64,000 bases of DNA, from the NCBI RefSeq assembly GCF_000423065.1, contig NZ_AUHG01000010.1, positions 682,001 through 746,000 of the forward strand, read 5' to 3'. This DNA is from Christiangramia echinicola DSM 19838. GTDB taxonomy: Bacteria > Bacteroidota > Bacteroidia > Flavobacteriales > Flavobacteriaceae. Within the stretch, counting starts at the first letter, position 1; every line of letters begins with the position of its first letter. The position numbers were made by a program, and so were the translations under genes. This document shows positions 45,368 to 63,940 of the stretch, piece after piece. The notes under the pieces are model-generated. The model made no database searches and was not told where the DNA came from. It saw only the letters and a program-made list of their open reading frames with translations.

Positions 45368-45530
45368 CAAGCTGCGTTGATAAGTCTTAAGAGTTAATTT
45401 TAGGTGCAAGGGTTAGTTTTCATAAATTAGCGTTTTCCTCATATCATCCTGTAACAAATATGAACGAATGATAAGGTTTTTGAGGATATAAAGTTGTACG
45501 CAAGCTAAAAAATCACAAAAATTGAACTAT

Positions 45531-45947
45531 ATGAGAACAAAAATGATTTGGGCAAATTTTGGTGTAGACGATATTGACAGAACACAGAAATTTTATCAGG
45601 AATTAGGGTTTGAGTTAAATGGACAACCCAGTAAAGAATTAGTAAGCTTTCTTTTTAGTGACAACGACTTTGTTATTCATTTTTTTAAAAAAGAGAAATT
45701 AAAAGAAAGCTTAGAAGGAGAATTGTCCGACTTATCTAAAGGAAACGAAATAATGTTTTCATTGTCAGCGGAAACCAAAAACGAATATGACGAGTGGGTA
45801 GAACTTATCAAAAACGCAGGTGGAAAAATCCACTTTGACTCTAATAATGACCGAAAAGAGTTTTATGATGAGAATGGTTTTTTTGTTTGTGTTTTTGCTG
45901 ACCCAGACGGACACAAATTCAACCTACTATATAATGAAAACAAATAA
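45531..45947 (+). CDS. VOC (glyoxalase/bleomycin-resistance) protein, cassette 1
   Basis: A 138-residue vicinal-oxygen-chelate protein starting near MIWANFGVDDIDRTQKFYQELGF-type sequence. The C-terminal metal-side strand FVCVFADPDGHKFNLLY is typical. The family includes antibiotic-binding and detoxifying members. The ATG at 45531 is chosen; Met at 45543 would start directly at the domain. Cassette limits are 45493 to about 46082. The gene is alone in its cassette. Confidence 0.85.
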   Translation: MRTKMIWANFGVDDIDRTQKFYQELGFELNGQPSKELVSFLFSDNDFVIHFFKKEKLKESLEGELSDLSKGNEIMFSLSAETKNEYDEWVELIKNAGGKIHFDSNNDRKEFYDENGFFVCVFADPDGHKFNLLYNENK

Positions 45948-45952
45948 AAGCC

Positions 45953-46090
45953 TGCGTACAACAACGATTCATCGCAAATAGCCGGCAGCCTTAGTAAGAA
46001 AACAATTAAATTTACTAACAAACCAGGTCTAAACCGACAACGCTGTGTGTCTTATACCGCCAACTGGTTATGATCTAGGCCGTTGTGCTT
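45953..46090 (+). repeat. attC-like repeat 1
   Basis: Begins TGCGTACAAC (45953-45962), the perfect reverse complement of the cassette's 5' start GTTGTACGCA (45493-45502). Continues AACGATTCATCGCAAATAG and ends GGCC GTTGTGCTT. An inner pair AACCAG / CTGGTT is present. Its 3' half is almost the same as that of repeat 3. Confidence 0.85.
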
Positions 46091-46144
46091 CATTATTTTA
46101 TAAAGCTATTTGTTAAAAATCATATCTTTAAAGAAAGTATCAAC

Positions 46145-46885
46145 ATGATAAATTTCTTTAGAAAGATCCGTCAACAATTACTTGAAAAAAATAGGTTTAA
46201 AAAATATATAATTTATGCCTTTGGAGAAATTGTACTTGTAGTATTGGGAATATTGATCGCACTTCAAATAAATAATTGGAACCAAAACAGACTTAATGCA
46301 ATTCACGAGAATAAAATTTTAAAAAATCTTAAAAAGGAATTAGTAAGAAATAACGAATTGAATGAATCATTGGTGATTAATAGGTTAGACAAGAAAATAG
46401 AAAGTCTAAAATTAGCAAAGAAATTCTGTGAAAATGAAATGATAGTGAAGGATACCCTAGAATTTTTAAATACCGTTTCCTACGGCGGCGTTTTTTCAGG
46501 TGGTCATATTTTTGGAGAGAGAAATTCCTATGATGAACTTATAAATACAGGAAATATACAGCTCATTAATAATGATTCTATAAAAAATTCTATTGCAAAT
46601 TATTATGGTTATTTAAATGCAGTTAAGGACCGAGCGCAAGTACATTCAGGTCGTTTTTCAAGCTACACTTCAGAATTACGACCATTTGATACAGAAAATC
46701 CGAATTATATATCCAAATTTGACCAATTTGAAATGTTACAATCATTCAATTCTCCAGAATTCAGAAAATTGGTCGATCTTGAACTTTCCTACGCTTTTAA
46801 AGTAAGAGATTATATCAAAAATGTTAGAACGCAAGGTGATCAGACAATAAATCTTATAGAGAAAAAACTAAAAAATGAACTGTAA
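46145..46885 (+). CDS. DUF6090 single-pass membrane protein, cassette 2
   Basis: A 246-residue protein starting MINFFRKIRQ. An N-terminal basic stretch is followed by one membrane helix (AFGEIVLVVLGILIALQI) and NNWNQNR, the hallmark of DUF6090. The rest is helical, probably periplasmic, and mostly coiled. Function is unknown. It has a paralog in cassette 4 whose 5' flank is nearly identical. The preferred start is ATG 46145 because the sequence before it belongs to the array repeat. Confidence 0.88.
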   Translation: MINFFRKIRQQLLEKNRFKKYIIYAFGEIVLVVLGILIALQINNWNQNRLNAIHENKILKNLKKELVRNNELNESLVINRLDKKIESLKLAKKFCENEMIVKDTLEFLNTVSYGGVFSGGHIFGERNSYDELINTGNIQLINNDSIKNSIANYYGYLNAVKDRAQVHSGRFSSYTSELRPFDTENPNYISKFDQFEMLQSFNSPEFRKLVDLELSYAFKVRDYIKNVRTQGDQTINLIEKKLKNEL

Positions 46886-46894
46886 AAATAACGC

Positions 46895-47036
46895 AAGCAC
46901 AACAACGATTCACCGCAAATAGACGGTACCGTTAGTAAGAAAATAATTTAATTCCTCAACAAACCAGTTCTAAACCGAAAAGTCCGCGTTCCCTACTCCG
47001 TCAACTGGCGATAACCTAGACCGGTGGCTGTAATTT
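46895..47036 (+). repeat. attC-like repeat 2
   Basis: AAGCACAAC (46895-46903) is the perfect reverse complement of GTTGTGCTT at 46082-46090, the start of this cassette. The body has the CCAGTT / AACTGG inner stem. It ends GACCG GTGGCTGTAATTT. Confidence 0.85.
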
Positions 47037-47042
47037 TCAAAC

Positions 47043-47639
47043 ATGAACATAGAACAAATCTTCCAAGACCTAAAATTTGACCTGCAATCAATAAGTATAA
47101 AAGCAAATGAAAGACTACTTAAAGAAGAGCAAATTAGATCAAGTATTTATTGCTCTTTAAGAAACCAAGGTTATATAGTTGCTGCAGAAAGGAATTATGA
47201 AAAGAATTCAGAGGTTGAATGTGATTTAGTCTTTTGGAGAAATTCCAAACCAGAATCCGAATCCTGGATGGAAATAAAAACGGCTAGATATTCAAAAGCT
47301 AAAGATGATGTACGGAAATTAGATAAATTTGGAAAGAACAGCTGGAATAATGGAGAAAAGGGGCAATTTAATAGTTGGAAAAAAGATATTCAGAAATTTA
47401 ATTTATTGAATAATATTGAGGTTGAAAAATATTTTGTACTTGTAGAACAATGCTTTGACGATTCACTTTTTGATAAAATGAATTCACAAAATTTATATGA
47501 GATAAAACAGCTTTTCGGAGAACTGAAATACAATAAAATAGAATTTGAGTTAAAATGGAACAAAGCCCCAGTAAATAAATGTATTGTAAGAATTTTTGAA
47601 CTAAAAAACTACAGTAAACAACCGTTAATCGCCCACTAG
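47043..47639 (+). CDS. PD-(D/E)XK-like protein of unknown function, cassette 3
   Basis: A 198-residue soluble protein. EVECDLVFW followed by SWMEIKTARY has the D...ExK spacing of PD-(D/E)XK nucleases, so a DNA- or RNA-processing or restriction-like role is possible. Remaining sequence is Lys/Asn-rich with no named family. The C-terminus runs into the attC-like repeat, which contributes its stop codon. It is the only gene of its cassette; no methyltransferase or partner is present. Confidence 0.6.
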   Translation: MNIEQIFQDLKFDLQSISIKANERLLKEEQIRSSIYCSLRNQGYIVAAERNYEKNSEVECDLVFWRNSKPESESWMEIKTARYSKAKDDVRKLDKFGKNSWNNGEKGQFNSWKKDIQKFNLLNNIEVEKYFVLVEQCFDDSLFDKMNSQNLYEIKQLFGELKYNKIEFELKWNKAPVNKCIVRIFELKNYSKQPLIAH

Positions 47640-47748
47640 CCGGCAGCCTTAGAAAGAAAATAATTAAATTCCTCAACAAACCAGGTCTAAACCGAGAACG
47701 CTGTGTGTCTTATACCGCCAACTGGTTATGATCTAGGCCGTTGTGCTT
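47606..47748 (+). repeat. attC-like repeat 3
   Basis: Its start AAACTACAGTAAAC (47606-47619) matches, as reverse complement, 47023-47036 at 10 of 14 positions. It overlaps the last codons of the cassette 3 gene, including the stop. The last ~55 bases are identical to repeat 1. Confidence 0.8.
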
Positions 47749-47804
47749 CATTTCATCAAGTTTCCTGGATAAAAATCATATATTAGAGAAACCAATCTCT
47801 AAGG

Positions 47805-48554
47805 ATGAAATTCTTCAGAAAATTTCGACAATTGCTACTATCTGAAAATAAGATCAGCAAATATTTACTGTATGCGGTTGGAGAAATCATTCTTGTTGTT
47901 GTTGGAATTTTAATTGCGCTGCAAATTGGTCAATGGACCCGGGAAAGTGAAAACAGGGAACTTGAATTGACTATCCTAAAGGAAATTGAGAGCAACTTAA
48001 ATGATGACCTGATTCAAATTCAAGGAGATATTTCGCTGATGCAGGAAATGGATAGAGCTTGCGTTAAATTAGAGAATGATATCGAAAATAAATCAACTCT
48101 CACTTCAGATTTTTCTGATAATGCAAGTTTATTAAGAGTGATGCCACACTATCAACCTAACCGCAGCGGATATGACCTCTTAGTATCTAAAGGTATATCT
48201 ATGGTCTCCAATGATAATTTAAGAAATTCTATATCTACGCATTATGAAAACCTCCTCACTTATTATAAACGATATGAAGACGAAAGGTTTATGTTTCACA
48301 TTAATATTAGCGAACCCAGATTACTGGAATATTTTAGTTTTGAATTCGACTTAAATAATAAATATTACTGGGTAGCGAATATATCTTTAGATGATTATGA
48401 TAAAATGCTTGGCGATGAATCATTTGCTAAGGTTTTAAAGGCAATAGAATCTGAAAACAAACAAGTTCTTTCCCGCGCAAATAGGGTTGCCAACAGTATT
48501 GAAAAACAATTAAACATTTTAAGTATTGAAATTCAAAGCCTGGAAAATAAATAA
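47805..48554 (+). CDS. DUF6090 single-pass membrane protein, cassette 4
   Basis: A 249-residue DUF6090 protein, MKFFRKFRQLLLSENK followed by the helix AVGEIILVVVGILIALQIGQW. It is a paralog of the cassette 2 protein: same start and helix, with a diverged helical C-terminal domain. Its 5' flank (47690-47755) matches cassette 2's flank. No matching 3' repeat is present after its stop, so the original cassette end has been lost or replaced. Function unknown. Confidence 0.88.
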   Translation: MKFFRKFRQLLLSENKISKYLLYAVGEIILVVVGILIALQIGQWTRESENRELELTILKEIESNLNDDLIQIQGDISLMQEMDRACVKLENDIENKSTLTSDFSDNASLLRVMPHYQPNRSGYDLLVSKGISMVSNDNLRNSISTHYENLLTYYKRYEDERFMFHINISEPRLLEYFSFEFDLNNKYYWVANISLDDYDKMLGDESFAKVLKAIESENKQVLSRANRVANSIEKQLNILSIEIQSLENK

Positions 48555-48603
48555 CGAAAGTATAATACCGTATAAAATTAATTGCCTGTTTTAGCCAATT
48601 TCC

Positions 48604-48700
48604 GAAAGTCCTCGCAGACTTTCTATCTGTGATTTATTTGCGAAGGTTAGTGATTAAAATACCCAACTAATCTAATACAGAACCGTGGTAAATAATTTTT
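48604..48700 (+). repeat. Remnant of an attC-like repeat, with a hairpin
   Basis: A GAAAGTC / GACTTTC hairpin (48604-48623) is followed by the 3'-half signature ACCCAACTAATCTAATACAG then AACCG. The rest of the consensus is missing. Its end GTGGTAAATAATTTTT (48685-48700) is the start of cassette 5 and matches the beginning of repeat 5 (49233-49248) as reverse complement at 14 of 16 positions. Confidence 0.65.
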
Positions 48701-48749
48701 ACGCAACCATTTCGATTACATCGCATCTTCTATATAAAGCAATCAAATT

Positions 48750-49226
48750 ATGAAAAAAATTATTCAAGTTTTAGTACTGTTGGTAGCCACATCTTATGGA
48801 ATTATATCATGTGAAAAGGATGATGATATTGAAGAGACTGACTATATAACTGCTTCTATAAACAATAAGAATTGGGAAGGAACTCCTGAAATTTATATTG
48901 ATACTAATGATAGTTTAACTTTACTGGGATACGGTAATGAGCAGCATATTTTTATTAAACTAAAATTTAAAGGAGAAGGAACTTACAACTTGGAAAATTC
49001 TCGAACTAATTACTACACTACAATAGGGGGAGATGTAATCACTAGTATTTACGTATTTGATGCAAATTCAACCTCACAATTAAAAATTACCAATTACGAT
49101 TCAGAACTTAATATCTTAAAAGGAGAATTTGAAGTTTCTCTCGTGAAAGAGTGGAGTAATCCAGAAAACGATATTGAAAAAACAATTTTCAAGAATGGTA
49201 AATTAAGAGGTGCTATTCGTGATTGA
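48750..49226 (+). CDS. Lipoprotein, cassette 5
   Basis: A 158-residue lipoprotein: signal peptide ending GIISC (Cys 21). The mature part is beta-rich and begins with an acidic linker EKDDDIEETD, then ASINNKNWEGTP, reminiscent of DUF6252-type lipoproteins of flavobacteria (a resemblance, not an assignment). Probably anchored to the outer or inner membrane. Function unknown. Single gene of its cassette. Confidence 0.8.
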   Translation: MKKIIQVLVLLVATSYGIISCEKDDDIEETDYITASINNKNWEGTPEIYIDTNDSLTLLGYGNEQHIFIKLKFKGEGTYNLENSRTNYYTTIGGDVITSIYVFDANSTSQLKITNYDSELNILKGEFEVSLVKEWSNPENDIEKTIFKNGKLRGAIRD

Positions 49227-49232
49227 GGAAGT

Positions 49233-49376
49233 AAAAACTATTTACAACAACTGTTCATCACCAATAGACGGTCGTGTTAAATAGAAAATAATTAATCTGA
49301 CCAATAAACCAATAATAAGCCGGCAAATCTACTCCCTTACTCGGCCAACTGAGTTTAACCGAGACTGTTGTTCGCC
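49233..49376 (+). repeat. attC-like repeat 5
   Basis: AAAAACTATTTACAAC (49233-49248) is the reverse complement of the cassette's start (48685-48700), 14 of 16. It has the consensus body CTGTTCATCACCAATAGACGG and AATAATTAATCTGACC. It ends CCGAGACT GTTGTTCGCC. Confidence 0.85.
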
Positions 49377-49448
49377 ATATATTAGAAAGCCTTGACTTAC
49401 TTAGTTTTGTGACATCAAACTAAGAAACATGATACGGTTTTTATATTT

Positions 49449-50726: not shown

Positions 50727-50736
50727 AAAAAGTACC

Positions 50737-50878
50737 GCACGTAGCAACGATTCATCGCCAATAGGCGGCAGTCTTAGTAAGACAATAATTAAATTCTCCA
50801 ACAAACCAGTTCCACGCCGGCAAGGTTGCGTTCCCTATTCCCACAACTGGCTATAAACGGAACCGTTGGCAAAAATTA
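50737..50878 (+). repeat. attC-like repeat 6
   Basis: Consensus body AACGATTCATCGCCAATAGG, AATAATTAAATTC, CCAGTT / AACTGG and end GGAACCG TTGGCAAAAATT. Its first bases GCACGTAGCAAC match the cassette 6 start weakly (about 5 of 9), so this cassette boundary is uncertain. Confidence 0.8.
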
Positions 50879-50906
50879 TTTAACTTAGAGCTGAAATAAA
50901 TTCAAA

Positions 50907-51836: not shown

Positions 51837-51843
51837 CTAGTTT

Positions 51844-51963
51844 GTGTATGATTTGTGCGATTGGAAACCGTAGATTTTCAATTGAAGCAAATCAGTTGTT
51901 TAAATATACTATTTTTAATTTGAAGTAGAATGTGAGCATTGATCATACACGTTGTTGGCATTA
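51844..51963 (+). repeat. Divergent array spacer with long inverted repeat (repeat 7a)
   Basis: Starts GTGTATGAT (51844-51852) and ends with its perfect complement ATCATACAC (51942-51950), followed by the core GTTGTTGGCATTA. The interior is unlike the standard consensus. The core is the start of the next cassette (51954-51963). Confidence 0.7.
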
Positions 51964-52851
51964 GTTTATTCCCCAAGTTTCGAATTGCTTTTTGAGGTCG
52001 TAAAAAATTTCTTTTATATTTTTATGATATTCTAAGTATAATACACCAGAAATATCAGAAGGTATTTCAATATCACCTTGTTTAATTATCGCAATCTTTC
52101 TGTTTTCCGAATCGTGAAATTTACCTAAAAAATATCCTAATTCAAGAATTACATTTTGCCTAGCTCTTAATTTACCATTAGCTTCATCATCAGGAGTGAA
52201 AAGAATTAAAGCAGAGGAGCAATCTTTCGCTAAACGTTCAAATTTCGATATTATAGTTTCAATTGAAACATTGGGTTCTTCTTGTAATATAATAGGTTCA
52301 AGACATAAATCATTTTTTATGATTTTTGCAAGTTCCATTCGAGCAGCGTCATCATGACCATGTACTATAAAAACTTTTTTATTATCTAAATTTAATTTTG
52401 GGGTTTTTTTGGTTTGGATATGGCTTTCTTCAATAAGATTAGGTTTAGAGTCTCTTATTTTTCTTACTTCTTTGGTGAAATCTAGTAAAACATTTTCATT
52501 TAATCCTATTAGTTTTAGGTTATGGTGCACTGATTTGAAATCTAACTTAGTAGAATGCCAAATTGAAAAATTAATAAGGATTCTAGTAATAAATTCACCG
52601 AATGAATTATATTCTTGTTCGTACCATAAAGTCATCAAATATCCAAATGCCTCCTCTTCATCTTCCGTATTATGATGGCCTGAAATGATTACTCTTTTTT
52701 TATTAATCACTTCTTTTTTACAATCTTTCCATATTTTATCAATATTATTCTCTATTGTAAAAAGTTCAAATTCTTTAGTATATAGGTATTTTCCAATTTG
52801 TAATCTTTTCAAGTTTGCATAAAGCGGTTTTAATTTTGATAGTATATCCAT
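51961..52851 (-). CDS. TIR/CAP-type nucleotide-binding protein, cassette 8
   Basis: A 296-residue protein encoded opposite to the array direction. The C-terminal ~135 residues are the TIR-like domain seen in predicted nucleotide-binding proteins (Pycsar/CAP-type). It contains VFIVHGHDDAARMELA at its start and NVILELGYFLGK with a candidate catalytic Glu. The N-terminal ~150 residues are of unknown type and may sense a signal. TIR domains with this motif typically degrade NAD in phage defence. Defence function is inference. Confidence 0.75.
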   Translation of the reverse strand: MDILSKLKPLYANLKRLQIGKYLYTKEFELFTIENNIDKIWKDCKKEVINKKRVIISGHHNTEDEEEAFGYLMTLWYEQEYNSFGEFITRILINFSIWHSTKLDFKSVHHNLKLIGLNENVLLDFTKEVRKIRDSKPNLIEESHIQTKKTPKLNLDNKKVFIVHGHDDAARMELAKIIKNDLCLEPIILQEEPNVSIETIISKFERLAKDCSSALILFTPDDEANGKLRARQNVILELGYFLGKFHDSENRKIAIIKQGDIEIPSDISGVLYLEYHKNIKEIFYDLKKQFETWGIN

Positions 52852-52865: not shown

Positions 52866-52980
52866 TAATGCCAACATTTGCCAACAACGATTCATCGCAA
52901 ATAGACGGTACCGTTAGAAAGAAAATAATTAAATTCACCAACAAACCAGGTCTAAGTCTGCAGACCGTTGGCAGTAATGC
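52866..52980 (+). repeat. attC-like repeat 7b (short form)
   Basis: TAATGCCAAC (52866-52875) is the perfect reverse complement of GTTGGCATTA at 51954-51963. The body is AACAACGATTCATCGCAAATAGACGG and AAATTCACCAACAAACCAGG, but the CCCTACTCC/AACTGG part is missing. A local arm CATTTGCCAAC fits the end GTTGGCAGTAATG. Confidence 0.8.
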
Positions 52981-53334: not shown

Positions 53335-53383
53335 ACTCCGCGCCACTTGTCGATATACGAGACAGTTGCAAATAATTTTATAA
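53335..53383 (+). repeat. Partial attC-like repeat (3' part only)
   Basis: Only the end CACTTGTCGATATACGAGACA plus core GTTGCAAATAATTTTATAA remains. The core (53365-53383) is the start of the histidine-kinase cassette and pairs with the beginning of repeat 8 (54605-54623), 17 of 19 positions. Confidence 0.7.
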
Positions 53384-53422: not shown

Positions 53423-54610
53423 ATGAACAACAATTTAAGCATTGATCTTCAGAAAGATATCAATACTATTTCTCAAATATCTTCTATTCCTTCAATGTTA
53501 AATGTGATTTGTCGAACCACAGGAATGAGGTTTGCCGCCGTTGCTAGAGTTACAGATAAAAAATGGGTAACATGTATATCGCAGGATGAAATTGATTTTG
53601 GTTTAAAACCAGGAGATGAATTAGAGTTACAAACAACCATATGCAATGAAATACGGCAACATACAAATCCAGTAGTGATTGATAATGTATCGGAAAATCG
53701 AGAGTATTGTAATCATCATACACCCGAAAAATATGGATTTCAAAGTTATATTTCATTTCCTATCTTTCGTAAAGATGGAAGATTCTTCGGTACCTTATGT
53801 GCAATAGATCCAGAACCAGCGAAACTTGAAAACCAACAAACCCATGAATTATTCCAATTATACACGGAACTAATTTCTTTTCATTTAGAATCAATTGAAG
53901 AATTAAATACGACAAATCAAATACTCCTAGAAGAAAAAAAGAATGCAAAACTAAGAGAAACTTTTATAGCTATTCTTGGTCATGATCTTCGAAATCCATT
54001 GACAACCACAAGGCTTTGCGCAGATATTCTACTGCAAATGGAATTGGATAAAAATGCTAAGAAATATGTTAGCACCATAAAGTCTACTTCTTTACGTATG
54101 CAAGAGTTAATTGATAATCTTTTAGACTTTGCTAAAGGGGAATTAGGGGAAGGTATTTCTTTAGTTATTAAAGCAGACAATAACAAGTTAAGAAAAGAAC
54201 TACAGCAAATAATAAAAGAGATTAAAACTACAGATTTAACTCATAAAATTATTTCAACAATAGATTTAAAACACCCTGTTAAATGCGATAGCAACAGAAT
54301 TGGTCAGTTATTTTCAAACTTGATTAGTAACGCTGTTAAACACGGTTATGATTCAACACCTATTTATGTCAATAGTCATACATCTGAAAAGCAGTTTATC
54401 CTTGAAGTGATTAATTCTTCCGATGTTATTCCCGTAGATATCATAAAAGATATTTTCAAACCATTCACCACAACCAGTACTGAAAACAATGAAAATGGAC
54501 TTGGATTAGGTCTATATATAGCTTCAGAAATAGCACAAGCACATAGTGGGACAATAGATGTTATATCCGAGAAAAATAAAACTAGTTTTAAATTCAGAAT
54601 GCCGTTATAA
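53423..54610 (+). CDS. GAF-domain sensor histidine kinase, cassette 10
   Basis: A 395-residue soluble kinase. A GAF domain spans about residues 20-155, with SYISFPIFRKDGRFFGTLCAID typical of the fold. The phospho-accepting His 187 sits in LGHDLRNPLTTT. The ATPase domain has NLISNAVKHGYD and GLGLGLYIASEIAQAHSG. No response regulator follows, so it is an orphan. The cassette's terminal complement overlaps the last codons and stop. Confidence 0.9.
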   Translation: MNNNLSIDLQKDINTISQISSIPSMLNVICRTTGMRFAAVARVTDKKWVTCISQDEIDFGLKPGDELELQTTICNEIRQHTNPVVIDNVSENREYCNHHTPEKYGFQSYISFPIFRKDGRFFGTLCAIDPEPAKLENQQTHELFQLYTELISFHLESIEELNTTNQILLEEKKNAKLRETFIAILGHDLRNPLTTTRLCADILLQMELDKNAKKYVSTIKSTSLRMQELIDNLLDFAKGELGEGISLVIKADNNKLRKELQQIIKEIKTTDLTHKIISTIDLKHPVKCDSNRIGQLFSNLISNAVKHGYDSTPIYVNSHTSEKQFILEVINSSDVIPVDIIKDIFKPFTTTSTENNENGLGLGLYIASEIAQAHSGTIDVISEKNKTSFKFRMPL

Positions 54611-54757
54611 AACTATTGGCAACAACTGTTCATCCCCAATAGACGGTCGTGTTAATTAGAAAGTAATTAATCTGACCAGTAAACCAATACTAAGCCGGCA
54701 AGATTGCGTTCCCTACTTCCACAACTGGCTATAAACGGAATCATTACCCACAGGTGC
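54605..54757 (+). repeat. attC-like repeat 8
   Basis: The first 19 bases TTATAAAACTATTGGCAAC match the reverse complement of the cassette start at 53365-53383 in 17 positions, the longest pair in the window. Body AACAACTGTTCATCCCCAATAGACGG resembles repeat 5. It ends TATAAACGGAAT then CATTACCCACAGGTGC. Confidence 0.85.
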
Positions 54758-55721: not shown

Positions 55722-55874
55722 GCACCAGCGGGTGACAATGATTCAGCGCAAAGCACGGGTTTAATCGAAAAAATGTAATTTTAGAAACCAGAAGATAAAA
55801 TGGTTAACACGATAAGTCCGTGTCCAAACTCCGTCAACTTGCTAATGCCGGGGGCCATTGTGTGGAATTATAAA
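55722..55874 (+). repeat. attC-like repeat 9
   Basis: GCACCAGCGGGT (55722-55733) pairs with the cassette start ACCCACAGGTGC (54746-54757) at 10 of 12 positions. The body has ATTCAGCGCAAAGCACGGG and CCGTGTCCAAACTCC, and it ends GGGGGC CATTGTGTGG. It belongs to a second sub-family of the repeat (also 10 and 13). Confidence 0.8.
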
Positions 55875-55883: not shown

Positions 55884-57239
55884 TTGAGAAAATTATTTTT
55901 CATCCTAACCCTACTATTAAACGTAGTCCTGGTATGCGCACAAGGGTCTAATTCAGAGAAAGTTTTTATTAAAAATATAAAACTGATTGATGGAACTGGA
56001 GGACCAATTCAAAATAACACTACTGTTTTAATTGAAGATGGGGTATTTAAGAAGGTTTTTAATTCTGCGGAATTCAAAATACCGAAAAATGTAAAGATTA
56101 TAGACGGCAAAGGAAAAACCATGATCCCTGGTTTAATTGGCGTTCATAATCATCTTCATATTCCCGGAAATCCTTTACTAGGAGAAATTGCAACTAAATT
56201 ATATTTAGCCTCTGGTGTTACAACAATTCAAACCTGTGGGGCAGCTTCACCCGAAAAGGAAATAGAAATAGCAAGAAAGATAGAAACAGGCGAAATTTCA
56301 GGACCAGAAATTATTCCTAGCGGACCTTATATTACTGGTATAGGTGGAAATATGAACATGATAATTCCTCAAAATGAAGATCAATTAAGAGATTTAATCA
56401 AGTTCTGGAAAGATAAAGGTGCCAGGTGGTTTAAAGTATATAGAAATATAGAACCTGAATTCCTTGAAATAGTAATCGACGAAGCTCACAAGAACAAATT
56501 AAAGGTTACGGGACATCTTTGTTCTATTACGTTTAAAGAAGCGTCAGAAATGGGTATAGATGCTATTGAACATGGTTTAAATAGTGTTTCAGACTTTAGA
56601 GGTAAAAAAAAAGCTGGTAAATGTTCTGGTTCGAGAGAATATATAGATGAATTAGATCTGGCTTCGGTAGAAGTTGAAGATCTACTCGATCTATTAGTAG
56701 AAAATGGAACTGTTCTAACTTCAACTCTGAGCATTTATGAAGCAAGTGTCCCTTCAAGAAAATTCATCGATGAGCGTAGTTTAGAAATAATGTCGGAATC
56801 ATTTCGGAATAACTTCAAAAATGTAAGTAATAGGTCAAATAAAGAGGTTAGTAAAACCAGGGAAAAGCGTTTAAAGCGAATAATGGAATTTGAGTATCGA
56901 TTCTATAAGAAGGGAGGAATACTTTCAGCAGGTGTAGACGCAGGCCGGCATGTTTTACCAGGCTTCGGGGACCAGAGAAATTTCATACTATTAAAAGAAG
57001 CTGGTTTTACAACGCAGGAAGTAATACATATAATGACTAAAAATGGAGCTGTAAAATTAGGAAGGACAGATATTGGAACAATAGAAACTGGTAAAAGAGC
57101 CGATTTTATAATCCTGGATGGAGATCTGGAGTTTGACGAAAAAGCGATTAGAAGAATCTACAAGATTTATAAAAATGGTTTTAGCTACAATCCAGATTCA
57201 TTACTTAAAGGTTTGAAGGGAAAATACGGAAATTTATAA
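55884..57239 (+). CDS. Exported amidohydrolase, cassette 12
   Basis: A 451-residue metal-dependent amidohydrolase. Starting at the TTG codon (55884), it has a signal peptide LRKLFFILTLLLNVVLVCAQ. Metal motifs are GVHNHLHIPG, VTGHLCS, AIEHGLNS and SAGVDAGRH (Asp). Longer frames starting at 55800 run through the repeat and are not real. Homologs hydrolyse cyclic amides or dipeptides; the substrate is unknown. Confidence 0.85.
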   Translation: MRKLFFILTLLLNVVLVCAQGSNSEKVFIKNIKLIDGTGGPIQNNTTVLIEDGVFKKVFNSAEFKIPKNVKIIDGKGKTMIPGLIGVHNHLHIPGNPLLGEIATKLYLASGVTTIQTCGAASPEKEIEIARKIETGEISGPEIIPSGPYITGIGGNMNMIIPQNEDQLRDLIKFWKDKGARWFKVYRNIEPEFLEIVIDEAHKNKLKVTGHLCSITFKEASEMGIDAIEHGLNSVSDFRGKKKAGKCSGSREYIDELDLASVEVEDLLDLLVENGTVLTSTLSIYEASVPSRKFIDERSLEIMSESFRNNFKNVSNRSNKEVSKTREKRLKRIMEFEYRFYKKGGILSAGVDAGRHVLPGFGDQRNFILLKEAGFTTQEVIHIMTKNGAVKLGRTDIGTIETGKRADFIILDGDLEFDEKAIRRIYKIYKNGFSYNPDSLLKGLKGKYGNL

Positions 57240-57379
57240 CTGCATAAAACAAGGGTTAATCGCCAAAAACAGGTTTTGTCGAAAAAGTGTAATTTTAGAA
57301 AACAATAACTAAATCGTACACATCTGTATCTTCACTACCACTACTAACGAATATACGGGACCTTTGTACACAATTTTAG
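57233..57379 (+). repeat. attC-like repeat 10
   Basis: Start TTTATAACTGCATAAAA (57233-57249) matches the cassette start at 55858-55874 as reverse complement in 13 of 17 positions and overlaps the stop of the amidohydrolase. End GGGACC TTTGTACACAATTTTAG forms the next cassette's core. Middle part diverged. Confidence 0.75.
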
Positions 57380-57382: not shown

Positions 57383-57964
57383 ATGAAAATTCTTATGTTT
57401 TTCCTGATATTATTATCATTTGGATGCAAAAGTGATCCTGGTTTTTTGACTGTTTCGAACCAGGAAACTTTAGATTTAAATGATTTTAAAAAAATAGAAA
57501 GTATTAGTAGATCTACTATAACTAAAGAAGATGAGCCAGGTGAGAAACTTTTGCTTTGCTTGAAATATATAGATAAAGAAAACAAAAAACCACTTTTAAA
57601 TCAGGAAGTGAAATTCTATCATACTTCAGATCTGGGAGAATATGATCCGGCAGATCCAGAAGATGAATCGACGGCAAGATTAAAAGGAACCGCGGTCACA
57701 AGTAAACGTGGACGGATATACATAGAGACAATTCTACCAGGAGATTATGGAAGCTCAGATGATAATAGACATATTCATTCAATAGTTAAAGGAGCTAAGC
57801 CAGAGACCTACGATATTCATTTCCTCCAATACACTGGTTTTATGGGAAAAAGATTTATTGAAAATAGCGACCAACATTTTCTGGCAGAATTAAAATATAA
57901 TAAAGACTCTACTTTAGTGGCATTTTTAACGATAGAAGTCAAGCAACCAGTTTTGAAGAACTAA
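57383..57964 (+). CDS. Intradiol-dioxygenase-like lipoprotein, cassette 13
   Basis: A 193-residue protein with a lipobox (LLSFGC, Cys about 15). The core NQEVKFYHTSDLGEYDPAD, SKRGRIYIETILPGDYGS and RHIHSIVKG resembles the intradiol-type dioxygenase fold, with a possible His pair in RHIH. A catalytic role is not demonstrated. Single gene in the cassette. It could be a periplasmic or surface enzyme. Confidence 0.6.
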   Translation: MKILMFFLILLSFGCKSDPGFLTVSNQETLDLNDFKKIESISRSTITKEDEPGEKLLLCLKYIDKENKKPLLNQEVKFYHTSDLGEYDPADPEDESTARLKGTAVTSKRGRIYIETILPGDYGSSDDNRHIHSIVKGAKPETYDIHFLQYTGFMGKRFIENSDQHFLAELKYNKDSTLVAFLTIEVKQPVLKN

Positions 57965-58105
57965 AACAGTGTAAAACGACAATTCATCGCCAATAAAAGG
58001 TACTTCACTGAAAATATTTATTTTAGAGACTAATTAATAAACCACTAAGCCGATAGATCTGCGTTCCTACTCCCAACTGGCGATAATCTAGACCGTAGCC
58101 AATTA
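57961..58105 (+). repeat. attC-like repeat 11
   Basis: CTAAAACAGTGTAAAA (57961-57976) is the reverse complement of the cassette start at 57364-57379 in 13 of 16 positions. The next segment contains ATCGCCA and later TGGCGAT, a perfect 7-bp inner pair. It ends CTAGACC GTAGCCAATTATC. Confidence 0.85.
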
Positions 58106-58179
58106 TCTATAACAAAAACTTCCATACGCAAATTCAAAAAATTAGATTAAAATTAATCAATAAAGGTTAAAACATTTTA

Positions 58180-58206
58180 TTGATTCTAACCGATTGTTTA
58201 GTTTTG
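58180..58206 (+). promoter_or_regulatory. Promoter of the TetR gene
   Basis: TTG (58180-58182), 16 bases, TAGTTTTG (58199-58206), then the ATG at 58224. The TetR operator (58186-58201) covers the spacer and the start of the -7 box, so the regulator would repress its own gene. Confidence 0.75.
58186..58201. promoter_or_regulatory. TetR operator A
   Basis: CTAACC-GATT-GTTTAG, an imperfect palindrome with four-base centre. It has the same half-sites as operator B at 58808-58823 before the next gene. Confidence 0.7.
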
Positions 58207-58223
58207 TATTGTAATTAGATCGA

Positions 58224-58787: not shown

Positions 58788-58807
58788 GCATTTTTTTTAA
58801 ACTATAA

Positions 58808-58823
58808 CTAACCATTCGTTTAG
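58808..58823. promoter_or_regulatory. TetR operator B
   Basis: CTAACC-ATTC-GTTTAG, the same half-sites and spacing as operator A, in the gap between the TetR gene and the CMD gene. Confidence 0.7.
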
Positions 58824-58861
58824 TTATTTAATAATTATTTAAACAATAAAAAAATACAATT

Positions 58862-59410: not shown

Positions 59411-59442
59411 GTAGTAAAAGTCTACTACGTTAATAAGCCTTA

Positions 59443-59468
59443 AACCTCCCGTTTAATCGGGGGGTTAT
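59443..59468 (+). terminator. Terminator after the TetR/CMD cassette genes
   Basis: AACCTCCCG (59443-59451) pairs with CGGGGGGTT (59458-59466), one G-T pair, six-base loop, followed by ATAT. A second hairpin (GTAGTA / TACTAC, 59411-59428) lies just before it. Confidence 0.8.
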
Positions 59469-59628
59469 ATTAAGATCAAAAGTCAATATTGTATATAAGT
59501 TAATCCACAAAATGAAGTAAGAACCTGGAAGTTAAAAGTGTCTATTGAAATTATATAACGCTGATTTTAATTATACATACCGCCCTCTAGACCAAAATAG
59601 ATATTCATTTGGTAGAAAGAAATCACTG
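59469..59628. other. Non-coding stretch inside cassette 14
   Basis: About 160 AT-rich bases between the terminator and repeat 12. No gene or full repeat is seen. ACCGCCCTCTAGACC (59579-59593) faintly resembles the 3' part of the attC-like consensus and could be a decayed site. Confidence 0.4.
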
Positions 59629-59766
59629 AGTGTAACAAGGGTCGTCGCAAATAGACGGTAGCTTTAGTAAGAAAATAATTAATTTCTCCACTAACCGGGT
59701 CTAAGTCAACAATTCCACCTCCCCGCTCTCGTAACCGGGAATTACCGCAACCGTTGGCGGTAAGCT
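59629..59766 (+). repeat. attC-like repeat 12
   Basis: Body GGTCGTCGCAAATAGACGG, AATAATTAATTTCTCC, ACCGGGT / AACCGGG and end GCAACCG TTGGCGGTAAGC. The inner pair has changed on both sides to CCGG, a compensatory swap from CCAG/CTGG. The start does not match the preceding cassette start, so the boundary there is unclear. Confidence 0.8.
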
Positions 59767-59776
59767 AATGGAATGC

Positions 59777-60133
59777 TTATTTTGAATATTTTTCAACCAC
59801 AGAATCGCCCCAATCGGCGATAGATTGAATTAAAGGAATTAAAGTTTTACCGAAATCAGTTAATGAATATTCAACTTTTAAAGGCGGCTTGGAAGTATAG
59901 ACCTTTCTTTTAATCAAGCCATCTTCTTCTAAAGCTTTTAACTGTAGGCTCAGGGTTCTTTCGGTAACTGTTGGCATTTCTTTCCTCAGTTCATTATATC
60001 GTAATTTTTTCTCAATTAAATGATATAAGATCACCGTTTTCCATTTTCCACCAATTATTCCCATTGTTAAGCTTGCGCAGCAAGGGTACTCTTTACCCCT
60101 GAAATTCAGCATTTTTGGTTCACTATTTTCCAT
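59777..60133 (-). CDS. HxlR-type regulator, cassette 15
   Basis: A 118-residue HxlR winged-helix regulator: CCASLTMGIIGGKWKTVILYHLIEK, then ERTLSLQLKALEEDGLIKRK and VEYSLTDFGKTL. Cys in the first motif may sense electrophiles. It is divergent from an NADP-dependent oxidoreductase, and overlapping promoters fill the gap. Confidence 0.92.
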   Translation of the reverse strand: MENSEPKMLNFRGKEYPCCASLTMGIIGGKWKTVILYHLIEKKLRYNELRKEMPTVTERTLSLQLKALEEDGLIKRKVYTSKPPLKVEYSLTDFGKTLIPLIQSIADWGDSVVEKYSK

Positions 60134-60162
60134 ATAATTTATACTATCCTTTTTGACCGTTA

Positions 60163-60193
60163 TTGCAAAGATAGAACACTATACATATTTTTG
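60163..60193 (+). promoter_or_regulatory. Promoter of the oxidoreductase
   Basis: TTG (60163-60165), 20 bases, TATTTTTG (60186-60193), ATG at 60231. It overlaps the opposite promoter almost exactly. Confidence 0.7.
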
Positions 60194-60196
60194 CAA
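60166..60196 (-). promoter_or_regulatory. Promoter of the HxlR gene
   Basis: On the minus strand: TTG (60196-60194), 20 bases, TATCTTTG (60173-60166), 33 bases before the start codon. The two promoters are inverted copies of one another, so only one polymerase could bind at a time. Confidence 0.7.
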
Positions 60197-60230
60197 CTAT
60201 AAAAACTATAGTAACTAAAAATAATATAGA

Positions 60231-61217
60231 ATGAAAGCAATGACAATTAATGAATATGGAGAAAATGCAATCTTTAGATCAAGAGAAGTAGAAAATCCAA
60301 CGCTTAATAGCGGACAGGTATTGGTTAAAATTTCTGCATCAAGTATCAACACAGTAGATACCATGATTAGAAATATGGGAGAGGATTTACCATTTGCACC
60401 AGCAACGCCAGCAATATTAGGAATGGATTTCGCGGGAACAATTGTAGAGGTAGGTCCAGATGTTACCGGATTTTCGGTTGGAGATGAGGTTTATGGTTGC
60501 GCTGGTGGTCTTGCAGAATTACAGGGAACATTAGCTGAATATATTGCTGCTGATAGTAAACTGATTGCCCGAAAACCAAAAAACCTTACCATGAAAGAGG
60601 CAGCCTCTTTACCTTTAGTAGGTATAACTGCTTATGAAGGTCTAATTCGAGCTAATATTCAAAGCGGACAGAATGTTTTGGTGCACGGAGGAACTGGTGG
60701 AGTTGGACACGTTGCAGTGCAATTGGCTAAACATTTTGGAGCCAATGTGTTTTCTACAGTTAGCGGAGAAAAACAAATGAAAATTGTTGAAAATTTTGGA
60801 GCAAAAGCCATAAATTATAAATCGGAACAAGTTGAAGATTACGTCAATGAACATACAAACGGAATAGGCTTCGATGTTGTTTTTGATACTGTTGGTGGAG
60901 AAAATATGCTTAAATCTTTTGAAGCAGCAGCTCTTAATGGTCAGGTTGCAACTACAGTTTCTTTATGCGAACTCGATTTAACTACAATGCACTTTAAAGG
61001 ACTATCGCTCCACGTAGTATTTATGCTTATACCAATGTTACATAATTTCCGAAGAGAACAACACGGAAAAATTTTAAGCAACCTGGCAAAAATTGCCGAA
61101 GCAGGAGATTTGAATCCTTTATTAGATGAAAAACAGTTTTCATTAGAAAATGTAGGAGAGGCTTACGCAAGACTAGAGAGTAGAAATGCAATTGGAAAAG
61201 TAGTGGTTGTAAATTAA
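60231..61217 (+). CDS. NADP-dependent oxidoreductase (quinone-reductase-like), cassette 15
   Basis: A 328-residue medium-chain dehydrogenase of the quinone oxidoreductase type. [14 protein letters not shown] and [22 protein letters not shown] are the NADP-binding motifs. There are no zinc-binding cysteines of the classical kind. The family reduces quinones or alpha,beta-unsaturated carbonyls. A divergent HxlR regulator suggests induction by electrophiles. It is followed ten bases later by a cupin lipoprotein. Confidence 0.92.
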
Positions 61218-61227
61218 AAATCAGGTT

Positions 61228-62094
61228 ATGAATTTAAGAATAGAACACATAACGCTTATATTTTCATTTCTGTTTTTAGCCTCTTGTAAAAATGATAGGC
61301 CTGTAAAAAATGAAACTGAAAGCAATAGTATTGAACAGATAGAAAAACCAACAAATAAGGTGCTTTTAAGTTCTGAAATTGAATGGGAAAAATTAAATCC
61401 TGCAAGAGGAGACCAAAGTCCACAAGCTGGTACTATTTGGGGAGATAGGAATGGAGAAGTTGCAACTGGATTTCTGGCAAAGTTTGTTGACGGCTTTTCT
61501 TCACCACCTCATATTCATAATGCAACTTATAGAGCGGTTGTTATAAAAGGAAGTATTCATAATGACGACCCAGAGGCAGAAAATATGTGGATGAAACCAG
61601 TAGGTTTCTGGACACAACCGCAAGGAGAATCACATATCACTTCTGCTAAAGGTGAAGAAAATATTGCGTTAGTAGAAATAGATAAAGGGCCTTACTTAGT
61701 TAAATCTAGTGAGGAAGCATATGACAACGGTGAGCGACCAATCAACATTCATACTTCAAATGTAGTTTGGTTAAATAGTAAAGAATCAAATTGGCTAGAT
61801 CCTAATAGTGAAGCTGAAATAAGTTTTCTTTGGGATGATAATGGTTCAAGAGGGCTCTTTTTAAAACTTCCAGAATCATTTAATGGAACAATAAAAACTG
61901 ATGGCTCGGTTTTACATTCGGTTGTCATACAGGGTGAACTGAATTATACTCTTCCTCAAGATCAGAAGATAAAAGTTTTAAATACAGGCAGTTATTTTGG
62001 AGCTACCTCTAAAGCAGTTCATAACATTTCTAACAATTCAGAAAATGATATTATATTATATGTTAGAACCAACGGGAATATTAGAGTGGAATAG
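61228..62094 (+). CDS. DUF4437 cupin lipoprotein, cassette 15
   Basis: A 288-residue lipoprotein: lipobox FLASC (Cys about 20). Two cupin-type halves: the first contains [20 protein letters not shown] with metal-binding His residues and ESHITSAKG, the second is around [11 protein letters not shown] and [10 protein letters not shown]. This matches DUF4437. It is probably periplasmic; the reaction is unknown. It follows the oxidoreductase closely and should be co-transcribed. Confidence 0.85.
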
Positions 62095-62095
62095 A

Positions 62096-62238
62096 GGCAG
62101 TTGCCTACACTTATTCATCGTCAATAGCGGGTGTTGCCAGAAAAGCGTAATTTTAAAAATCAGGAACGCAAATATCTAATTCTACAAGTCCGCGTAAAAA
62201 TTTGAAACTTGCGATAACCGGGACCGTTTTACGCAAGC
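62096..62238 (+). repeat. attC-like repeat 13
   Basis: GGCAGTTGCCTACAC at the start loosely matches the cassette 15 start (59753-59765) as reverse complement (about 9 of 13 with gaps). Body TTATTCATCGTCAATAGCGGG; end GCGATAACCGGGACC GTTTTACGCAAGC. It is the same sub-family as repeats 9 and 10. Confidence 0.75.
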
Positions 62239-62274
62239 TGAAAAAAGCATCGTACAAAAGATAAAAATAGGCAA

Positions 62275-62820
62275 ATGAGAAAATTAAAGCTTCAAATTCA
62301 ACTATCCATTGACGGATTCATTTCGGGGCCTAATGGAGAAATGGACTGGATGATTTGGAATTGGGATGACCAACTAAAAGATTTCGTTGCAAAATTAACG
62401 GAGTCAACCGATACCATTATCCTGGGACGAAAGCTTGCGGAAGGTTTCATTCCTCATTGGAAATCTAACAAAGACCTGGAAGGTGCTGATAAAATTAATA
62501 ATTCAAAGAAAATAGTTTTTACAAAAACACTTGAAAGCACAGAATGGGAAAATACGATTTTAGAAAAGGGAGATTTAGCCAATAAGATACGGGAATTAAA
62601 ATCCTCAGCTGGAAATGACATCATAGCTTATGGTGGTGGCGAATTTGTTTCCTCTCTGATAAAAGAAAATTTAATTGATGAATATTATTTTTTCATTAAC
62701 CCTTCGATATTGGGCAGCGGAATGCCCATATTTCAGAAAGCTGATTATAAAAATGAATTGAAATTGAAAAAGGCTAAAGCATATGAGTGTGGAATAACCG
62801 TATTAAACTATTTAAGTTAA
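62275..62820 (+). CDS. Dihydrofolate-reductase-like (RibD C-terminal) protein, cassette 16
   Basis: A 181-residue protein of the RibD C-terminal/dihydrofolate-reductase superfamily. LQIQLSIDGFISGPNGEMDW, TIILGRKLAEGF and DIIAYGGGEFVSSLI are the family's NADPH-side motifs, and FINPSILGSGMPIF follows. It is not a classical trimethoprim-resistance DfrA. Single gene of its cassette; probably a small-molecule reductase. Confidence 0.9.
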   Translation: MRKLKLQIQLSIDGFISGPNGEMDWMIWNWDDQLKDFVAKLTESTDTIILGRKLAEGFIPHWKSNKDLEGADKINNSKKIVFTKTLESTEWENTILEKGDLANKIRELKSSAGNDIIAYGGGEFVSSLIKENLIDEYYFFINPSILGSGMPIFQKADYKNELKLKKAKAYECGITVLNYLS

Positions 62821-62830
62821 GAAAAAGGTG

Positions 62831-62915
62831 GCTTACGAAAAAGATTAATTACCAACAAATTCGCTACCCTTACTTTGCCAACTGGCGGTAACCGAAACCA
62901 TTGAATGCAATTAAG
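62831..62915 (+). repeat. attC-like repeat 14 (short form)
   Basis: GCTTACGAAAAAG (62831-62843) is the reverse complement of the cassette start 62226-62238 at 10 of 13 positions. Only about 85 bases: CTACCCTTAC, CCAACTGGCGGTAACCG and the core CATTGAATGCAATTAAG. The 5' half of the consensus is missing. Confidence 0.75.
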
Positions 62916-62925
62916 TTGAAAAATT

Positions 62926-63804
62926 ATGCGTAAAACTCTACATTTATTTATAATTTTTATAACTACTATATCTCTTGGGTATAGTCAAGGACGAGATTCT
63001 CATTTGATTAAAAAAGATTTTCTACAAGTAAAAGATAATCAAATCTATTATGAAGTTTCTGGGAGTGGAGTACCAGTAATATTGATTCACGGCGGATATC
63101 TAAATCATGAAATTTGGAAAAAACAAATCAATTTTCTAAATAAAAAAGGATTTAAAACAGTAGTGTATGATGATCTAGGTCACGGCAAAACCATAAACGG
63201 AAAAGAAGAAGTTTATGGATACCAAATTGTTGACGAAATAAGAAGGCAACTCAACCTTGAAAAAATAAATATAATTGGTCTCTCTTGGGGCTCTATGATA
63301 GCCTTGGATTATGCTTTAAATAATCCTAAAAACTTAGACAGATTGATTTTAATTTCTCCAGGTCTAAATGGATGGAACTATTTTCAAGATCCTAAAGCAG
63401 AAGAGAACTTTAATCAGAGGCAAATAGCAAAGATTAATAATGATAAAATTTCTTTTGTGGAATATTTTCAAAAAAATTGGACTGATGGTCCGGGCGAATC
63501 CACGGGAAGAGTAAAGGTAAAGTTACGCAATCATATTGGTGAAATATTACTAAATACAGTAAAGAATCATTGGGAAGAAAATTGGTCAAAATTATCTACT
63601 AAAACTAGATGGAATTCAATAGAAGCTAGAACTTTAATTATTACAGGTAATCTGGATGCGATTGATATTACAAAAATTGCAAAACAATACGACGAAGAAA
63701 TAAATCAATCGCAATGGATTGATATTGAAAATGTGGGGCATACTTTAATAGTTGAAAAACCAAAAAAAGTGAATCGTATAATTAATTTTTTTTTGAAATC
63801 TTAA
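62926..63804 (+). CDS. Exported alpha/beta-hydrolase, cassette 17
   Basis: A 292-residue alpha/beta hydrolase with a signal peptide ending YSQ. The oxyanion loop is VILIHGGYLNHEIW, the nucleophile LSWGSMIALDYAL and the last His is in NVGHTLIVEKP. TLIITGNLDAIDI marks the Asp-bearing strand. It is probably periplasmic and acts on a small ester or amide. Single gene of its cassette. Confidence 0.9.
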   Translation: MRKTLHLFIIFITTISLGYSQGRDSHLIKKDFLQVKDNQIYYEVSGSGVPVILIHGGYLNHEIWKKQINFLNKKGFKTVVYDDLGHGKTINGKEEVYGYQIVDEIRRQLNLEKINIIGLSWGSMIALDYALNNPKNLDRLILISPGLNGWNYFQDPKAEENFNQRQIAKINNDKISFVEYFQKNWTDGPGESTGRVKVKLRNHIGEILLNTVKNHWEENWSKLSTKTRWNSIEARTLIITGNLDAIDITKIAKQYDEEINQSQWIDIENVGHTLIVEKPKKVNRIINFFLKS

Positions 63805-63940
63805 CTGTACAAAAATGATTCATCGCAAATTGATGGCACCTTTATTAAGAAGATAGTGAATTAGCTTACAAACTGTGTGTAATTGGGCAATTTCATATCC
63901 CTACTCTCGCCATTTGTAATTATCGAGACTGTTTCCTAAG
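63800..63940 (+). repeat. attC-like repeat 15
   Basis: CTTAACTGTACAAAA (63800-63814) matches the reverse complement of the cassette 17 start (62901-62915) in 10 of 15 positions and overlaps its stop. Body ATTCATCGCAAATTGATGGC; end CGAGACT GTTTCCTAAG. A TACTTTTG -7-like box follows at 63950-63957. Confidence 0.8.

Follow-up and report, generated by a model that had tools for sequence, protein, structure and literature searches.

What kind of mobile element left the array of cassettes that lies between positions 45493 and 63940 of the window, the 64,000-nucleotide (nt) stretch of Christiangramia echinicola DSM 19838 analysed here? Each cassette in this array closes with a terminal, imperfectly palindromic attC site of ~125 nt with a GTT core, the organisation of an integron, and an integrase was not found nearby. 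The original prediction for this locus had noted that the first bases of a cassette are the reverse complement of the beginning of its own 3' repeat, and had proposed that a circular intermediate would rebuild one hairpin from these two arms. The window holds a decayed cassette array, an integron relic in a Bacteroidota bacterium. We consider it probable that it derives from a Bacteroidota integron in which matching arms result from a circular folded form, in which the recombinase lacks the I2 helix of classical integron integrases (IntI), and in which strand choice relies on wobble pairs.

The pairing of each cassette with itself is a real property of the sequence. All 11 arm pairs listed in the original prediction were recovered where it had placed them and with the same match counts, and their mean of 12.45 matches in a fixed register of 17 nt compares with 6.95 when starts and ends are permuted (standard deviation 0.84, maximum 11.64; none of 200,000 permutations attained the own mean). 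With shifts of up to 3 nt permitted for own and foreign pairs alike, own pairs score 11.73 and permuted pairs 8.50 of 15, again with 0/200,000. Permutation preserves base composition, and so AT content does not explain the excess. A repeat profile seeded with 14 window copies and then iterated gave 56 attC-like hits in those stretches of this genome that were searched, representing 55 distinct places (one was seen twice), and 50 cassettes were defined as the intervals between neighbouring hits together with two first cassettes placed by hand. Numbering the G of GTT as position 1 and scoring the 11 arm positions 4-9 and 12-16, own arms of these 50 cassettes match at 8.32 positions, compared with 4.27 for permuted pairings (standard deviation 0.24, maximum 5.5; 0/100,000). 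The pairs are private, as had been claimed: an end arm matches the start of the neighbouring cassette, which is the sequence it faces in the chromosome, at 4.60 positions (43 pairs), and all other starts at 4.18. For the 14 profile-anchored cassettes of the window the own score is 6.0 and the permuted score 3.96, with the own value attained by 1/100,000 permutations.

The original prediction missed that the pairing is interrupted at position 11, where an A/C mismatch is nearly invariant, and then continues as a second block. On both sides GTT usually occupies positions 1-3; positions 4-9 are private and matching, and position 10 matches in about half of cassettes. Position 11 is A in 47/50 starts and G in 43/50 reverse-complemented ends, and matches in just 4/50, placing A opposite C on the top strand and T opposite G on the bottom. 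Positions 12-15 are again private and match, and matching fades by positions 18-19. In the 35/50 cassettes with stronger arms, positions 4-9 and 12-15 match in 80-100%; these cassettes, like the 32 sites of this genome folded below, were picked by arm score, and their rates are upper values. Apart from GTT(R) and the position-11 A, cassette starts have little in common. An outer GTT at end-arm positions 11-13 was considered as a second crossover site and dropped, as position 13 is variable and private.

The array in the window has lost much of this regularity. The GTT core at cassette starts is kept in 8/15 cassettes of the window array and in 34/35 elsewhere in the genome, and cassettes shorter than 1550 nt score 6.33/11 inside the array (n=9) and 10.10 outside it (n=30). 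As both core and arms are more eroded than in the other arrays of the genome, the window holds a decayed array, and outward polymerase chain reaction for circles there may well fail. Weak arms occur mostly in long cassettes (at least 1550 nt, mean 5.09/11, n=11; shorter cassettes, 9.23, n=39), which fits two cassettes fused after attC decay.

The enzyme that could move such cassettes is encoded on another contig. No protein of this genome passed the cut-off of the integron-integrase model; the highest-scoring candidate, an open frame of 411 residues on contig C3, is followed by an attC-type repeat, and the sole match on the window's own contig is a weak one at C1:197053, ~530 kb away. Residues R247, K272, H336, R339, H362 and Y371 are invariant in 31/31 aligned sequences, identifying the enzyme as a tyrosine recombinase. 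Counting this genome, homologues occur in 139/299 genomes of the family (E<=1e-60) and in 10/296 genomes drawn from the phylum (E<=1e-70), and the named relatives among the best 80 loci include Mesonia, Zunongwangia, Algibacter, Winogradskyella, Flavobacterium, Algoriphagus and Rufibacter. The loci of Zunongwangia mangrovi (L109) and Winogradskyella ursingii (L117) each carry an array that follows the arm rule. Twenty loci of relatives were fetched, of which 19 were long enough to search for repeats, and 12/19 have repeat families of at least three copies downstream of the integrase, not all of which were checked as attC. At least one strict arm-rule pair is present in 17/20 of the relatives' loci, with a single pair in four of them. 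In one locus (L103, oriented positions 15177, 15542 and 16474) three cassettes have identical start arms with ~250 nt from arm to arm, which looks like one short cassette that has been repeated.

The explanation that competes best with the one we prefer is an ordinary integron lineage, in which the arms are the classical R box with its known extension of 9-11 nt, and the position-11 rule and the wobbles are habits without function. Private R-box pairing itself is classical integron biology and already known, and a passage of Bouvier et al. 2009 (PMC2727003) describes self-pairing of 9-11 consecutive nt for most cassettes; private arms of at least 9 nt are present in the classical attC sites of our control too. 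The original prediction had taken an extent beyond the 7-base R box as a distinguishing feature. That was overstated, since classical pairing also exceeds 7 nt: in our classical control, perfect runs, given at least 9, reach 14 in one order (A), and 16 and once 25 in the other (B). This control comprised two orders in which 95/197 and 59/150 genomes exceed the TIGR02249 cut-off, with 20 regions adjoining IntI fetched per order (40 in total, some shortened by contig ends). Layout, an attI of the form AAC..GTT and, in this genome, a bulged base are likewise integron-like.

What speaks against an ordinary lineage is the form of the arms. Arms were compared by counting unique 9/9 pairs, with chance pairs, sized by block shuffles, forming part of every n. 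A/G at position 11 is found in 27/51 pairs of this genome, 93/166 of the relatives and 50/110 of a named set of 40 loci (L106-L145, 36 of them labelled Bacteroidota), compared with 10/201 and 12/161 in classical orders A and B, where block shuffles give a chance expectation of 68.4 of 201 and 44.6 of 161 pairs. The second block is also present in 19, 39 and 14 of the A/G pairs of this genome, the relatives and the named set, respectively, and none of the classical A/G pairs of either order has 4/5 matches at positions 12-16. Outside the array, window positions 1-44000 contain 13 pairs of 9/9, one with A/G at position 11. The break at position 11 and the second block recur in the sampled Bacteroidota and in one Firmicutes metagenome-assembled genome (MAG), and not in the two classical orders; what sets these arms apart is the succession of a block of 9-10 bp, the nearly invariant position 11 and a second block. 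The MAG locus (L155, about 1-4740, from Firmicutes bacterium HGW-Firmicutes-8) carries an integron-like array with attC interiors of 270-347 nt. Four of its seven listed pairs have the form 9 bp, AA/TG, 7 bp; by the rule, its array is divergent from the integrase, which is the classical layout, and its integrase is compact, without either the IntI insertion or an N-terminal domain.

The integrase itself also argues against an ordinary lineage. In an alignment, the catalytic Lys and the His of HxxR are separated by 65-66 residues in 24/24 Bacteroidota rows (one of which, L129, has a gap at the catalytic Tyr), by 107-108 residues in 8/9 IntI rows and 88 in the ninth, and by 71-73 in 4 Xer-like rows. 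The Bacteroidota integrases thus lack the IntI-specific insertion that is the I2 helix, and the match of the integrase to 2a3v is interrupted at chain residues 194-246. In a tree of 50 sequences, 9 IntI rows group with support of 100/100, the IntI label of five tree rows being assigned from presence of the insertion, and 22 Bacteroidota rows fall outside this clade. Compact enzymes of Firmicutes and candidate phyla group together (83/80). The integrases of four candidate-phyla loci (L151, L154, L164 and L171) join the Firmicutes one there, and the two that were checked, L151 and L171, are compact; of these four loci, L151 alone yielded an arm pair, a single one. Taking arms and enzyme together, we regard an ordinary integron lineage as unlikely. 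The Bacteroidota system shares with classical chromosomal integrons one attC per cassette, the GTT core, R-box pairing that is private and restored on circularisation, a bottom strand that is somewhat more stable, large arrays and the AAC..GTT form that is that of classical attI. It differs in the missing insertion and extra N-terminal residues of the integrase, in the position-11 mismatch with a second arm block, in many bottom-strand G.T pairs, in fewer bulged bases in most relatives, and in an array placed downstream of the integrase 3' end.

A further possibility is that a classical IntI encoded elsewhere moves the arrays and that the XerA-like recombinase is a bystander. Its scores invite this view: 218.6 bits with the archaeal XerA model (cut-off 220), the best score, and 201.8 with the integron model TIGR02249 (cut-off 265), and XerA/Xer recombinases (5hxy, 4a8e; NF040815) are the best sequence and fold match of its catalytic part. 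A predicted model of the Mesonia enzyme (mean pLDDT 85.1) is likewise nearest to XerA and to VchIntIA. Xer recombinases act on double-stranded dif sites, without arrays, and the Bacteroidota integrases differ from them in a longer N-terminal part. No match in the genome exceeds the IntI cut-off, and the gene stands beside an attI where an array begins. On contig C3 (locus L011), the integrase gene (9881-11116) is followed by attI (about 11117-11143), with the sequence ATATAACAC^GTTG between integrase and attC, and by a first cassette with matching arms and the first attC at 12068. Many relatives show this order of gene, attI and array; the window's own array has no such arrangement. The pattern TATAAC-NN-GTT follows the integrase stop in 19/29 loci, by eye, and an arm-rule start was found near the integrase in 19/29 loci, 25-41 nt past the stop in 10 and within 205 nt in 17. 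These distances make a bystander very improbable. Another motif, TTATCC[CG]G or a sequence close to it, was seen by eye within the final integrase codons of many loci; in L090, L100, L102 and L104, whose final codons are without it, it stands just past the stop. Its occurrence beyond the stop suggests a DNA site rather than a protein one. The first cassettes of L011 and of L045 (contig C12) have near-identical starts, as would result from duplication of a cassette or from a long array having been split in the assembly. The start in L011 is followed by a gene that by eye resembles one for a cation-efflux protein.

If the arms serve a circle, the circular site should fold better than the integrated one, and the predicted folds agree. 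Sites of this genome are predicted to fold into an outer stem, a spacer and an inner stem. In 32/32 own sites (chosen by arm score) the circularised form is predicted to be more stable than the integrated form, in agreement with the hairpin rebuilding originally proposed; predicted means are -27.0 kcal/mol for the circularised bottom strand, -22.5 for the top and -18.9 for the integrated bottom strand. Among sites not chosen by the rule, the circle is favoured in 194/223 Bacteroidota sites. The bottom strand is predicted to be more stable than the top in 191/223 Bacteroidota sites (mean gap 3.32) and in 221/366 classical sites (0.62), as well as in 119/119 sites of a set chosen by the A/G rule and biased for that reason. 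A separate fold count left out sites with fewer than 18 bottom-strand pairs. A circular intermediate would be the natural explanation of the matching arms, which can pair only in a circular cassette.

Wobble pairs accompany the predicted strand difference. In sites with at least 36 pairs on the two strands together (255/366 classical sites and 164/223 own and relatives' sites), G.T pairs per site on bottom and top strands number 3.50 and 0.04 in this genome (n=26), 3.51 and 0.33 in relatives (11 loci, n=138), 3.33 and 0.33 in the named set (9 loci, n=43), and 1.30 and 0.53 in classical regions (40 regions, n=255). Interior bottom-strand G.T pairs account for 2.69, 2.75 and 2.58 per site in this genome, relatives and named set. 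As most wobbles are thus inside the site and not in the arms, the asymmetry is not just that of position 11. One-nt bulges on the R''-L'' arm, by comparison, number 0.92 per site in this genome, 0.20 in relatives, 0.37 in the named set and 1.42 in classical sites, and an extrahelical single base on the bottom-strand R''-L'' arm is predicted in 25/138 relatives' sites, 15/43 named sites and 179/255 classical sites. The strand of the stronger folds bears on another reading, that the arms act in RNA, for example as terminators or in mRNA end-pairing, and are maintained for expression. The arms do lie just outside genes, and complementary ends could pair in a whole-cassette RNA. However, pairing is predicted to be stronger on the bottom strand of the DNA, the antisense strand for most array genes, each start arm opens at the GTT with which the preceding attC ends, and a reversed gene (window 51961-52851) is flanked by arms as well, making this reading improbable in the extreme. 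We give virtually no credence to transposon-like units with private arms as terminal inverted repeats. Each unit does have inverted arms at its two ends, but the copies of a transposon family share their terminal repeats, whereas these arms are private, the shared part (attC) lies outside one arm, the starts share mainly GTT(R) and the position-11 A, and one matching integrase gene stands beside attI in the genome rather than one per unit.

The private arms, the position-11 rule, the order of integrase, attI and array, the missing insertion and, in predicted folds, the wobble asymmetry are observations. We infer circular intermediates, single-strand recombination at G^TT and use of the wobble asymmetry by the integrase, and propose the following mechanism. 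A cassette would run from GTT(R)NNNNN through its own attC, and excision would join its start to that attC, so that the two arms pair. The bottom-strand hairpin would then have an outer stem of 9-10 bp, a mismatch or wobble at positions 10-11 and a second block of ~3-7 bp; inward of it would come a spacer left unpaired, an inner stem and a terminal part of large size. After insertion at attI or at another attC, the arms would face strangers and be mostly unpaired. Selection on the folded circle would keep the arms matching, and they would decay once a cassette stops moving, as in the window. The recombinase, of the tyrosine type, falls outside the IntI clade, lacks the bulge-reading insertion and, in Bacteroidota, has an added N-terminal domain. 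Bottom would be told from top by stability, through G.T wobbles on the bottom strand and A.C mismatches on the top, position 11 being the most constant, and the integrase would recombine the folded bottom strand with attI at G^TT. The reading of bulged bases by I2 would be replaced by stability or by the N-terminal domain. Whether this amounts to a separate class of Bacteroidota integron that recombines folded single-stranded attC without I2, with strand choice residing in the wobbles and read through stability or the N-terminal domain, we judge to be evenly balanced.

The N-terminal domain is a candidate reader of the fold. Residues before the core number 74-119 in 21/24 Bacteroidota rows and are more numerous in three with uncertain starts, compared with 1-49 in 13 IntI and Xer-like rows. 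A model of the added domain (mean pLDDT 80.3) gave as its best Foldseek match XPB (E 0.3), with a SMARCAL1 HARP structure at rank 8 (E 1.0) and MutS-beta further down. Pfam matches among 20 members were HARP in 1/20 (E 0.012) and DUF5710 in 3/20 (best E 0.00061), and a sequence search of the PDB with the domain up to E 1 returned a sole match, to an unrelated chain (0.095). With fold matches at E 0.3 or worse, a HARP identity was not established. The predicted likeness to XPB and SMARCAL1 HARP, whose domains we take to be fork or mismatch readers, is weak and a lead only.

Several observations weigh against the mechanism. Circle, excision and integration are read from the arms rather than observed, and arm covariation would be indirect evidence of them. 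The folds are predictions for one strand alone, made with DNA parameters that permit G.T pairs, and the Bacteroidota loci in the wobble count were chosen for having arrays. A gain on circularising is predicted in 290/366 classical sites as well, and in 145/255 classical sites G.T pairs are likewise more numerous on the bottom strand, compared with 45/255 in which they are more numerous on the top. Block shuffles lead us to expect 19.0 chance pairs among the 51 of this genome, 81.4 among the 166 of relatives and 50.8 among the 110 of the named set, and 15/161 order-B pairs match at 4/5 of positions 12-16, none with the A/G rule. A bulged base is present in 22/26 attC sites of this genome, which may use both bulged base and wobbles. 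Interior wobbles are scarce in the Firmicutes L155 sites (0.25 per site, n=4), and the integrase of this locus has ~21 residues before the core domain; as the locus keeps the arm rule, neither interior wobbles nor the N-terminal domain are required for it. The Lys-His spacing of 65-66 is also found in five rows from other phyla (L147, L151, L152, L155 and L171), of which L155 and, weakly, L151 (a single pair) alone have arms. At 88/80, the Bacteroidota clade falls short of strong support. The integrase is on a different contig from the window array, the link being their shared attC type, and the attI-like edge of that array aligns with the attI region of L011 (about 11095-11143) at a score of 26, below the 99% shuffle level of 28. 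No arm-rule start was found near the integrase in 10/29 loci, two of the 19 starts are far from the stop (L086 and L104, 314 and 368 nt) and probably due to chance, and the Mesonia locus that supplied the modelled enzyme (L106) has neither an arm-rule pair nor an arm-rule start.

The role of I2 in classical integrons gives these points their context. According to PMC7790495, I2 docks extrahelical bases, is required for cassette capture and blocks second strand exchange, and its acquisition is credited with the shift of the integrase from double-strand to single-strand recombination; the same source notes, and this too weighs against our mechanism, that I2 has not been directly proven to be the cause. 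A statement in PMC8138268 has the IntI insertion essential for integron function, yet not fully conserved in an integron-like subgroup. The complete integron that the relevant part of the IntegronFinder 2.0 paper (PMC9024848) names in Bacteroidetes proper is that of Salinibacter ruber M1. An excerpt of a 2008 survey (PMC2426708) reports intI in the Bacteroidetes/Chlorobi group, with integrases chosen by the additional domain or intI patch, a selection that would have passed over the integrases studied here. We found no earlier description of such integrons in the open-licence PubMed Central (PMC) literature, which is without subscription papers and preprints.

In the window, where the left edge, the arms and the attC sites are all on the forward (+) strand, the array opens with an attI-like left edge (45440-45492) that ends ATATAAA right before the first start and is a possible remnant of an integrase-gene 3' end; a proven attI at this edge was dropped as a candidate, the shuffle statistics being unsupportive. 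Cassette 1 begins with the arm GTTGTACGCA (45493-45502), the 10/10 complement of its end arm, an extended R'' box (45953-45962), and closes with attC 1 (45961-46085, profile score 96.8 bits). The start arm of cassette 2 (46082-46090) matches 9/9 with the end arm at 46895-46903, directly before attC 2 (46902-47026, 107.4 bits). A start arm with the decayed core GGT for GTT (47023-47036, 10/14 with 47606-47619) leads to attC 3 (47618-47743, 82.4 bits). A probable decayed attC 3' half (48600-48684), recognised by eye and without a profile hit, precedes the start arm at 48685-48700 (14/16 with 49233-49248), which is followed by attC sites at 49247-49370 (86.8 bits) and 50745-50868 (98.6 bits).

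Two sets of arms are nested between 50865 and 52967. The outer start (50865-50873), of an esterase cassette, matches 9/9 with the R'' box adjoining attC (52877-52885), and the inner start (51954-51963) matches 10/10 with an R'' box just upstream (52866-52875); the attC itself (52884-52967, 66.6 bits) is shortened to profile columns 1-85 of 124. It is as though one cassette, carrying a TIR-domain gene in reverse, had been inserted into a second next to its R'' box. That gene (51961-52851), carried as a reversed cassette, has a TIR domain of the CAP12/Pycsar effector type, and a likely role against phage.

Further along lie the longest listed arm pair (start 53365-53383, 17/19 with 54605-54623) with its attC (54622-54745, 85.6 bits), then two start arms with decayed cores, at 54746-54757 (10/12 with 55722-55733; attC 55735-55855, 58.0 bits) and 55858-55874 (13/17 with 57233-57249; diverged attC 57249-57365, 39.6 bits). 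The start arm at 57364-57379 (13/16 with 57961-57976) is followed by attC sites at 57977-58096 (70.6 bits), 59639-59756 (77.0 bits) and 62108-62228 (57.4 bits), the start arm at 62226-62238 (10/13 with 62831-62843) by an attC whose 5' part is missing (62826-62903, profile columns 23-124, 33.7 bits), and a last start arm with a decayed core (62901-62915, 10/15 with 63800-63814) by the attC at the window's right end (63814-63933, 67.4 bits). One further attC-like hit lies beyond the window at C1:749490 (69.0 bits). Pfam domains were found in 9/10 window proteins scanned, namely two glyoxalases, two DUF6090 proteins, a chloride channel, an esterase, a TIR effector domain, a histidine kinase and a hydrolase. 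The two DUF6090 genes, at 46085-46885 and 47805-48554, lie close by each other and are perhaps a duplicated, diverged cassette. As a group of attC sites lacking an integrase, the array resembles the clusters termed CALIN, and its attC type is that of the Bacteroidota system.

With insertion-less integrases beside cassette arrays in many genomes of the family, natural enzymes would allow a direct test of whether I2 is needed. Such cassettes can be found and oriented from sequence alone by the position-11 rule, and the state of the arms may separate mobile from dead cassettes. If the arm rule in a Firmicutes MAG with a compact integrase is borne out, hairpin-cassette recombination would have arisen or persisted outside the IntI lineage. 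Surveys that start from the integrase may have missed this pool of mobile genes.

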